Of a stretch of DNA of 64,000 nt, positions 48,425 through 61,546 are shown piece after piece. A program made the translations under genes and the position numbers. Numbering within the stretch: position 1 is the first letter of the stretch; every line of letters begins with the position of its first letter. The notes beneath the pieces are model-generated. The model did not search any database. It had not been told where the DNA came from and saw nothing but the letters and a program-made list of their open reading frames with translations. Source of the DNA: Dichotomocladium elegans (lineage: Eukaryota; Mucoromycota; Mucoromycetes; Mucorales; Lichtheimiaceae); assembly GCA_025716815.1 (NCBI GenBank), contig JAIXMN010000018.1, positions 620,001 to 684,000 on the forward strand, written 5' to 3'.

Positions 48425-48665
48425 AAGATTATCGTGCGACTGTTTTTTTCGGTCTACATGACATTTAATTTGGGCAAAAAAGCACGGCTTCCATTGTGTG
48501 ACCCTTCAGGCCCAAACCTGAGAGGGGTTCGATTTTGATAGGAGGGGAAAGAGTGTATTGAGATGAGCGCTTGAGTTCTAATGGAACGGCGTGTAGGTAT
48601 ATGCCACTGTCGTCAGCCAACTCCTATAATTACCGTCGGCCTATGAGTAATTTTCCCGGGATTTC

Positions 48666-50308
48666 CTAGATGCTTTGCACTAACCAGACGGTGTCCGACC
48701 TTGAAGACAACAGCGCGAGTGTTGCTACCCCAGCACTTAGCAAGACCATCGACCACAAGGTTGGATCGCGGAGATAAGTCGCGCGCAGTCGCTCGAGAAC
48801 CCGCTGGGCTTGTGTATGGGAAAGCGTCCGACCATCTGCATGGGCTGCGAGGTCGAGCGGAGTCCGTTTGTCAACTGTCATAGCAAGAACTCGGCAGGCC
48901 TCTGCCCTTGATAAGCTCATATCACTCGTCGCAAGCCAGAGACGGTCAAACATATTTATGGCCGATACCTCGTCCAATGCAATCCCACTTTCGATCTGCA
49001 AGGTCAGGGGAGGATAGGCCGTTTCTAACCTAAGCGCAGTTTCAATCAGTTGCTCGAGCACATCAACGTGATGGTGTTGCTGCTCTTTGGATGCGTTAGT
49101 CAGCAAAGTGTGTAGCAGTGACATGTCACTTTCTTCCGCTAGAATCCGCTTGCGCTGAGCGAGGACGATGGCGGCTGACATATACAATGGCATCAAGGGG
49201 GCCGAACTTAGGAATAGGTCAAATAGCCTAAGGATCTTTTGAAGGTCATTGAGATCGTGGCTGAACCAGGTAATGACCCAGCTGAGACAGTAGTAAGGAA
49301 GCACTCCCGCGCTTGTGTATCAAAATGAGTCAGCCTTAGCATTTTTCCTTCTCTGCTGTATTCGCTAACCTGGTAATGTGATCATGGAGTTTTGGGTCTT
49401 CTTTTTGGATAAGTGTGTCGAGCATGGTAAGTTGTCGTAGAATAGGTTCCAAGGAGTCCAACATGGCATCCGTAAACGGATTCTTGGTTAAGAATATGAA
49501 CATGGAAGAAAAAACAAATAGCGCAGATCCTCTAATTATTTCTCGCGAAAAAAGGATATCTGATGTAGAACAAAGCGACATGCTCCATCAAGATACTTGC
49601 ATCTCGCTCATTAAAGACTAGCGTAAACACAGAGCAAATATCATGGAAGCCCTACCAATATACATTATTATAAGAATCTGACTCTTCGATAGCTACAAAC
49701 CTGATAATAATGCAGTCTTGGATGTGTACGAAGCACATGGGTAATGACCTTTGTCAGTTTGATGCGTAACTTTTCTCTCGTGGGTGGGCTGATGGCTAAT
49801 CATAGATGGTTATTCGGCATCGGTTAGGTAAACTAGACAATTTCCTTTCAGGTTTTTTCACCTTTTGGATAAGCGTTGAAGGATCTCGCTACATCAAGAG
49901 CAACTTGGTCCTCGTCCTTATGTTTCTCTGGCAATGGCATGAGAAAAAACTATTTATGCCGACAAACCAGCCAGCACCGCAGAGCAAATATGAATTTTAC
50001 CTGTTGACCTTACTTCTTTGGAGATCTCGTCGTGACGAAGCAAAAGCGACCTAACATAGTCAATTTTTCTTTAAGTATATTAAAGCTCTTGTTTTACCTT
50101 TTACTTTTTTCCATTGTTATTACCAAGCCTGTTTCCTCAAGCTGTTGTTGAGGAACCCACCTGCGGTCCGACCGAGATGTCGAAGCCCCTTAATGTTCCT
50201 TTCTCGGATGGCAGTTTCGATCTGAACTTTTTTTATAGATTGGGTATTAGGTCCATGTCTATGATGCGATCGCGTTTTGGTTGATCGGACGAGATGTTTT
50301 TTGGGCAT
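48666..50308 (-). CDS. TBC1D20: TBC1D20/Gyp8-type Rab GTPase-activating protein
   Basis: Seven exons: 50124-50308, 50001-50050, 49862-49927, 49701-49795, 49560-49651, 49370-49471, 48666-49311 (1236 nt, 411 aa). The TBC domain holds both catalytic fingers: Arg in DQVALDVARSF (IxxDxxR form) and Gln in HPRLHYYQGFHD (YxQ). It continues with YIRDAMLDSLEP, EDPKLHDHI, LPYYCLSWVITWFSH and APLMPLYMSAAIVL, the order seen in TBC1D20. A C-terminal hydrophobic segment (WSMVLLSAGVATLALL) fits the ER/Golgi membrane anchor of that subfamily, which acts on Rab1 and Rab18. The N-terminus (ERNIKGLRHLGRTAGGFLNN) matches the subfamily start. Intron 5 is a U12-type AT-AC intron; the others are GT-AG. Confidence 0.93.
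49472..49559 (-). other. U12-type AT-AC intron in TBC1D20
   Basis: On the coding strand the 88-nt intron starts ATATCCTTTTTT, an exact U12 donor, and ends TTTAC. A branch-point match TTCTTAAC lies with its adenosine about 15 nt from the end. Joining AG|G restores YIRDAMLDSLEP, which aligns with the LRDFMDP segment of TBC1D20 proteins. No GT or GC donor in exon 5 gives this frame. Confidence 0.9.
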
Positions 50309-60536: not shown

Positions 60537-61546
60537 TTGGATTGAGTGGGGGGGGGTTAAAGAATTTGGATAGTGAGGTAAAGAAGAAAAAAGAAACAAA
60601 AAGTAATTCGGGTTGTTGATATTTTTAAACAAAAAAAAAAGTGACGGGCCAGGTCCGATTTTAACCAAGCCAGGGGGGTTGTTTGCTGCCTAAAAAACAT
60701 GGATTGCCCTGGCTTTTCTCCATTTCTGTCATATCAATAAAAAAAGACTCGCGTCCCTCGAGTACGCAAGAGCCATTGTATTCGGATGAGTTTTGCTTCC
60801 ATCGAAGGACTTGTCGACATTGTACATGCGAAGAACGTCGCTACGGAATAAAAAAGAAGAAAAAAAACATTTTTCCGCTCTGGAACATCGAAGCAAACGA
60901 CTTTTCCATCTTTTCATGCTTTCAGAGAAAAGAAAAAAAGGTAGTTTATTTGCACTGATTCCCTTCCCCCCCCCCCAAAAAAAACAGGACACACACCGTA
61001 CAAAATGGTGAAGGAAAAAAAAAGACTCACCGCGATGAAATACCAATGATGTCAACATTGCCCGCCCACAAACAACATTCACCCCCCAGCACGCCCGGAA
61101 ACAAACACAGAAATAGACGCCGATCCGGTCATTCTGTCAGTGCGTTTGTCCACTATGCCGCATCAACCCAACCTCTTGCTTTGTCTCCTACGTCTATCTG
61201 ATCTCTCCACCTCTAGAACTCTCTCTCTCCCCACCAGCAGTCGAAGACATAAACACACACGCACATGCACACTCCTCCCCCTCCCCCTCCCCCTCGCCAT
61301 TATTGACATCATGGTTTTTTTTCATCGCGTCGCAGGCATTATCCTGATCCGCTAATGAGGGTATTTCTCAGCCAGCTCTCTCTTCTTTGTGATCAGAAAG
61401 AAAGAGCAGCACCCCTTGAAAAAAAAGCCAGAACGTCACACCCATCATCGCCGCCCACCAGCACACCCAAGCCTCGAGTTGCACAGGAAACGTGCAAAAA
61501 CCTTTGGCGAGGGCGCGCACAGTGGGCTGGCGTAGTCAAAATTTAT
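60537..61546. other. Intergenic, cytochrome c promoter side / transporter 3' side
   Basis: About 1 kb with C-run (60966-60977), A-runs and CT/CCCT repeats (61271-61295). Short ORFs on both strands have no recognised features. It must hold the cytochrome c promoter; no Hap-type CCAAT site was confirmed. Confidence 0.45.

Follow-up and report, generated by a model that had tools for sequence, protein, structure and literature searches.

Is the 88-nt segment that interrupts a TBC1D20-type gene of Dichotomocladium elegans, a mould of Lichtheimiaceae in Mucorales, a true minor (U12-type) AT-AC intron, and does the genome hold what would be needed to remove it? The window, i.e. the whole 64,000-nt stretch of DNA that was analysed, carries this segment at 49472..49559 on the minus strand. 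The earlier note, made from the sequence alone, had called it a textbook U12-type AT-AC intron; this identification is now backed by its motifs, by reading frame and homology, by a deposited annotation made independently, by a paralogue in which an AT-AC intron interrupts the same codon, and by read-through traces in proteins of related fungi. We propose, with a probability of roughly 0.96, that the D. elegans TBC1D20 Rab-GAP gene contains a genuine U12-type AT-AC intron that is removed by the minor spliceosome, and that has been inherited, kept in a paralogue and apparently also across Mucoromycota. The sequence and its frame, the deposited protein, the snRNA genes, the paralogue and the protein footprints were observed directly; the splicing events themselves are inferred.

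The intron lies in phase 2 between exon 5 (49560..49651, minus strand), encoding GFHDICSVFTLVFNERDASILMEHVALFYI(R), and exon 6 (49370..49471, minus strand), encoding (R)DAMLDSLEPILRQLTMLDTLIQKEDPKLHDHIT. Exon 5 ends with ...TACATCAG at 49560 and exon 6 begins with GGATGCC at 49471, so that the junction reads TAC ATC AG|G GAT GCC, i.e. Y-I-R-D-A. The intron begins with ATATCCTTTTTT, the 5' splice site at 49548..49559, and ends with CATATTCTTAACCAAGAATCCGTTTAC (...TTTAC), the AC of the 3' splice site occupying 49472..49473. These boundaries are unable to slide, since exon 6 opens with G where the intron opens with A, and the intron closes with C where exon 5 closes with G. Its terminal dinucleotides, AT-AC, are allowed for U12-type introns, and the eight bases ATATCCTT at 49559-49552 match the minor-type donor consensus RTATCCTT exactly. 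The branch site TTCTTAAC (49487..49494, minus strand) has a single mismatch to the consensus TCCTTAAC, and the mismatched base would form a G-U pair with U12. The exon and intron sequences, the exact donor and the branch motif one base off consensus had thus been read correctly, with the minus strand of the gene left unstated; the branch-to-end distance of about 15 nt holds when counted after TTCTTAAC, but the branch adenosines themselves are located 17-18 nt from the intron 3' end. If the intron is retained, the frame stops after nine codons, the junction codon included, and the full-length TBC1D20 protein therefore requires splicing.

The coding span of the gene covers 48578..50308 on the minus strand and comprises eight exons (50308-50124, 50050-50001, 49927-49862, 49795-49701, 49651-49560, 49471-49370, 49311-48685 and 48623-48578), separated by six GT-AG introns and the one AT-AC intron. 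Translation of this model yields exactly the deposited 420-aa D. elegans protein P0001, and hence the deposited annotation already removes the AT-AC intron. With an earlier 403-aa model as query, which differed from the final one in exon 2, exon 3 and the C-terminus, the Pfam RabGAP-TBC domain (PF00566) was matched with 91.5 bits (cut-off 25.2), the human TBC1D20 structure 4hl4 with an E-value of 5.8e-44, and the Lichtheimia corymbifera tbc1 domain family member 20 with 57% identity; P0001 itself was the top database match of that model, with 98% identity over 99% of its length. To compare junctions, donor-acceptor pairs of the GT-AG, GC-AG and AT-AC types that keep the frame, 86 in all with the AT-AC pair included, were scored over the two exons against four homologues. 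The AT-AC pair 49559-49472 obtained the best mean score, 204.25, in agreement with the earlier claim that splicing gives AGG GAT GCC (R-D-A) in frame and restores the conserved TBC1D20 block. That no GT or GC donor does so is correct insofar as none restores the block as well; frame-keeping pairs of both types do exist, a GC-AG pair as runner-up (186.75, with an eight-residue insert) and a best GT-AG pair at 167.75, and the in-frame GC-AG and GT-AG alternatives add or remove residues inside the conserved block. An eight-base donor at the precise spot where the protein needs a junction, in a model that equals the deposited protein, is more than chance.

A locus was found in the same assembly for each of the four minor spliceosomal snRNAs that the earlier note had proposed to look for, using Rfam covariance-model searches. 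U11 (C57:376575-376728; 74.0 bits, cut-off 39) and U6atac (C29:379900-380035; 46.1 bits, cut-off 33) exceed their Rfam cut-offs, whereas U4atac (C35:1091392-1091514; 41.5 bits, cut-off 53) and U12 (C13:442388-442537; 32.0 bits, cut-off 53) fall below theirs. At the default Rfam threshold U12 gave no match in the assembly, with the controls equally silent, and it was recovered only at a looser threshold, at which the U11, U12, U4atac and U6atac searches taken together also matched control genomes, in 11, 7, 11 and 3 cases out of 14, without once exceeding the cut-off. The U12 gene is full length, with UAAUGAGUAAGGA, the hairpin ACCGGGUAACACCGGU and the Sm-like AAUUUUUU all present, and the U4atac gene is likewise full length with the 3' end CAAUUUUUGGAA. 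The 5' part of U4atac is predicted to form 19 base pairs with U6atac around one bulge at -33.7 kcal/mol, compared to a mean of -17.1 kcal/mol (sd 3.8) for shuffled controls, none of which (0/500) was as stable. Taken together, the case that all four minor snRNAs are encoded in D. elegans is convincing, with two of the four below the curated score. Several candidates were set aside: a second U12 locus (L081, 20.6 bits), and, from the 14 matches of the U6atac search of which one exceeded the cut-off, L003 and L005, which are ordinary U6, and L002 (22.4 bits), which is without the conserved box. A search with a 20-base motif of human U12 returned 10 matches versus 14 for the reversed pattern and was useless. 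Among proteins, CENATAC is of interest since the AT-AN subtype depends on it in human cells, as described in part of PMC8280824; a search of the genome with Pfam CENATAC (PF14968) gave 0 matches, as it did in the control genomes. With human U11-35K as query, the named proteins among the 120 matches listed of 1896 were vertebrate, which made this search uninformative on fungi.

From established knowledge of minor splicing, removal of the intron would proceed as follows. U11 would recognise the 5' site ATATCCTTTTTT through its own 5' end AAAAAGGG, and the GUAAGGA of U12 would pair with TTCTTAAC, leaving the branch adenosine bulged. U4atac would then bring in U6atac and be unwound, allowing the U6atac GAAAGGA to take the place of U11 on the donor, and joining at the AC end would restore the R-D-A codons. 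All three contacts can be drawn with the RNAs of this genome, including seven paired positions (one G-U) between the branch site and U12 if one adenosine is bulged. The pairings are not significantly above shuffles, which were at least as stable in 54/500 cases for the branch site with U12, 65/500 for the donor with U11 and 45/500 for the donor with U6atac (9-13%); short helices seldom are. The earlier conclusion that the genome keeps a working minor spliceosome is supported by the four snRNA genes, the U4atac/U6atac helix and further AT-AC introns in conserved genes, 'working' being the part that goes beyond these observations.

The intron position is also occupied in a second gene. A TBC1D20 paralogue (L028, C68:1352414) contains a ATATCCTTTTTT...TCCTTAAC...AC intron at the same codon, with FYL|RDAMMDS around the junction compared to FYI|RDAMLDS in the window gene, and the deposited paralogue protein P0188 is spliced at this AT-AC junction. 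The two introns, 74 nt in the paralogue and 88 nt in the window gene, are, judged by eye, little alike beyond the motifs. Footprints were then surveyed in 166 different deposited homologous proteins (60,211 residues), taking the conserved GFHD as the origin for offsets. An R at offset 31 precedes D in 94/166, while R with YPF or YPL after it sits exactly at the junction in 7/166, six entries plus a truncated one ending in RYPF (Absidia glauca). RYPF is the translation of an unremoved AG|ATATCCTTT, R-YPF/L in general corresponds to read-through of AG|ATATCCTT, and the D. elegans intron, if translated, would give RYPFF; away from the junction RYP[FL] occurs four times in the 60,211 residues. The species concerned are Mucor saturninus, Helicostylum pulchrum, Choanephora cucurbitarum, Absidia cylindrospora, Absidia glauca, Jimgerdemannia flammicorona and Entrophospora sp., which we take to span Mucorales, Endogonales and Glomeromycotina. 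The other 66/166 comprise 18 that lack a GFHD-type motif, 42 with no R at offset 31 (several of which still read RDAM, shifted by one residue), 3 with other R|Y continuations, 1 other, and 2 too short, among them the truncated Absidia glauca entry. In the Helicostylum protein P0020 the whole intron is seemingly translated, R|YPFFLYINSSYFFFFNISLNFFFFFST|DEM, with traces of the donor as YPF, of TCCTTAAY as SLN and of the 3' end as ST|D. In P0015, P0016, P0043 and P0231 a T precedes the D, as expected of ...AC|GAT read through from an earlier AG. The footprints thus seem to be traces of the same minor intron in relatives, and, given the paralogue and the seven R-YPF/L homologues, the TBC1D20 intron looks like an old, conserved one. 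This suggests that one intron of a vesicle-traffic gene has apparently remained of the AT-AC type in both paralogues and across Mucoromycota. The survey is of practical use as well: a translated piece of this intron seems to be present in seven deposited fungal proteins, indicating that gene predictors miss AT-AC introns and that such protein footprints can be used for finding them.

Two other ways of removing the intron are conceivable, both of them very improbable. The intron may be real and yet be excised by the major (U2) spliceosome, as with rare AT-AC introns; AT-AC ends by themselves are no proof of minor splicing, and major AT-AC introns are described for human SYCP2 and TAF2 in part of PMC8280824. 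The full-length donor ATATCCTTT and a branch motif with its adenosines 17-18 nt from the end are, however, of the minor type, the paralogue retains the same motifs, and the genome has a locus for all four minor snRNAs. Alternatively, a different junction may be used, GC-AG 49546-49483 or GT-AG 49579-49483; the protein made from it would differ slightly and might be an alternative isoform. Both pairs keep the frame, but the former inserts eight residues and the latter replaces or removes conserved ones, at the cost in score given above; the deposited protein uses the AT-AC pair, and R-D stands at exactly this place in more than half of the homologues surveyed.

A regulatory role, in which slow removal of the minor intron limits TBC1D20 and retention acts as a switch, would add to minor splicing of the AT-AC intron rather than replace it, and we regard it as improbable. 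The early stop upon retention is compatible with such a switch, as is the finding that genes with minor introns in Rhizophagus are enriched for vesicle-mediated transport. The same source (PMC10639083, in part) reports no regulation tied to proliferation in Rhizophagus and prefers an explanation by neutral processes, and no pointer to regulation is present in the sequence at hand.

Additional minor introns were sought in the genome using motif patterns. The strict pattern TATCCTTN{25,55}TCCTTAAC gave 14 matches versus 2 when reversed, with an A preceding 13/14. A long-gap pattern gave 14 versus 12 in the control. The loose pattern TATCCTTN{20,50}CTTAACN{4,20}AS returned 58 rows versus 87 for the control, and since it is this noisy, its matches were judged by coding context alone. 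An A-only pattern with TTCTTAAC gave 7 matches, four of them one repeat, versus 1 in the control, and none was kept. In total 50 motif places (37 + 13) were examined, the base before TATCCTT being A in 38, G in 5, C in 2 and T in 5; L010, among the 38, came from the A-only pattern alone. Of these A places, 21 were kept by eye for an AC acceptor with open, protein-like frames on both sides, and together with the window intron, which none of the patterns matches, they make 22 AT-AC candidates. Eleven A places were dropped because they offer no AC junction with 20 open residues to either side (L009, L014, L020, L025, L026, L060, L076, L077 twice, L096 and L100), and six with such a junction were judged unlikely (L010, L011, L045, L068, L072 and L073), L011, L045 and L073 lying in frames open straight through. 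L056 and L062 are open straight through in one frame, yet were kept, L056 as a weak case and L062 on account of a VPS11 match across its junction.

Eight AT-AC cases are firm: the window TBC1D20 gene, its paralogue L028, an Alg9-like mannosyltransferase (L021), a prefoldin subunit (L029), an RNB-domain nuclease (L094), DCP2 (L102), CBF/NF-YB (L104) and VPS11 (L062). The junction lies inside a Pfam match in 7/21 fragments scanned and in the window gene, L028 reaching only E 0.0013, below the Pfam cut-off. Left out of the firm count are L023 (END3, E 0.016, below cut-off) and L024 and L041, whose matches do not span the junction; the weak resemblance of the L041 ion-channel fragment to an enterotoxin family (E 0.038, below cut-off) is attributed to chance. 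Donor position +9, which is outside every pattern, is T in 22/22 kept and 9/17 dropped A places, a contrast that serves as a guide only, since the candidates were sorted by eye; +10 is T in 20/22 kept. No GT-AG minor intron passed among the 50 motif places examined, five of which have a G before TATCCTT. Three of these G places (L022, L040 and L044) have neither a junction with 20 open residues to either side nor a Pfam match. The other two are open straight through: L070 lies within a Helitron-like coding stretch, its motif recurring on C89 and C100, and L075 within a hydrolase-like stretch. A GT-AG class with different donor or branch motifs would escape these patterns. We note that L016 and L027 form an apparent paralogous pair with an AT-AC intron after RPSRL common to both, neither fragment having a Pfam match, and that L041 has an AT-AC intron shortly after an Ion_trans match in a cation-channel-like gene; cation-channel-type genes are a class for which minor introns have been reported.

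Rhizopus and Phycomyces, which we presume to be of the same order as D. elegans, offer the closest comparison. Minor introns are reported in Rhizopus oryzae and Phycomyces blakesleeanus, at AT-AC:GT-AG ratios of 1:2 and 9:8, respectively, by one method, and of 8:8 for the EST-based Phycomyces count under a strict donor rule (PMC2846911, in part). These zygomycete fungi share with D. elegans the motifs, the AT-AC subtype and the presence of minor snRNAs, but mix AT-AC with GT-AG, whereas the motif search in D. elegans found AT-AC alone. One example is RPS13, whose intron is GT-AG in Rhizopus and of the U12 type in Phycomyces. Fisher tests against the Phycomyces 8:8 yield p 0.022 for 8:0, 0.00026 for 22:0 and 0.052 for 7:0, and are a guide only, comparing motif-based, eye-sorted counts with EST-based ones. 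A bias of D. elegans minor introns to AT-AC is hence possible and, with motif search and eye sorting as its basis, unproven. More tentatively, and with some doubt, the set may be essentially AT-AC only: a minor spliceosome that still runs would serve one subtype, its donor lengthened to ATATCCTTTT(T), which matches the A run at the U11 5' end, while GT-AG minor introns would have been lost or turned ordinary, leaving the AT-AC ones. If true, D. elegans would offer a natural way of learning what is required by the part of the minor spliceosome that is specific to AT-AC.

In a wider frame, genome-wide classification counts 205 minor introns in Rhizophagus irregularis and 249 in Basidiobolus meristosporus, and Rhizophagus has all four minor snRNAs and minor-intron positions in common with animals and plants (PMC10639083, in part). 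These are likewise fungi outside Ascomycota and Basidiomycota, compared to which the 22 candidates of our motif search are not a full count. The earlier statement that minor introns are missing from most fungi and kept in early lineages agrees with what PMC10639083 and PMC2846911 report in the relevant parts. No fungus with minor introns that look AT-AC only appears in those parts of the two papers; the nearest case is Blastocystis, with a similarly strong AT-AC excess (77% of its minor introns; PMC10639083, in part), but it is an unrelated non-fungal lineage with very short introns and a phase 0 excess. Within open-licence PMC, we found no paper on Dichotomocladium introns or Mucorales minor introns, and none with TBC1D20 among the minor-intron matches listed. 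As minor introns have already been reported in such fungi, the TBC1D20 intron belongs to a known kind and is a real, yet fairly ordinary example for its lineage; it adds a clean case in Lichtheimiaceae, in a genome where each of the four minor snRNAs has a locus.

Some further observations were made along the way. An element, AAWGAAAAYGAAAWY, follows the 3' end of all six snRNA genes with inspected flanks, minor and major alike, at a distance of ~11 to 31 nt: U12 (L080), U6atac (L001), U4atac (L082), U11 (L083), U6 (L003) and U4 (L092). Its pattern was built from the first five, U4 then being found through it, and it may represent the 3' box of snRNA genes in D. elegans. Genome-wide it occurs 110 times versus 31 for the reversed pattern, and many of the 100 places listed are same-strand pairs ~160-215 bp apart. 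Six of ten fetched places (L084-L087, L090 and the L093 entry) lie in a dispersed repeat containing GGGGATACACAGCAGCCGGCC. One copy of the element weakly matches the CPEB3 ribozyme (22.1 bits, cut-off 35). Four contigs, C33, C36, C39 and C121 (L011, L012, L013 and L015), have an identical 62-base stretch, perhaps a subtelomeric repeat, at ~2 to 9 kb from their ends. Finally, the window contains a TPP riboswitch aptamer at 61308-61426 on the minus strand (55.4 bits, cut-off 54.3), positioned between two same-strand frames that we take to be sugar-transporter-like and cytochrome-c-like.
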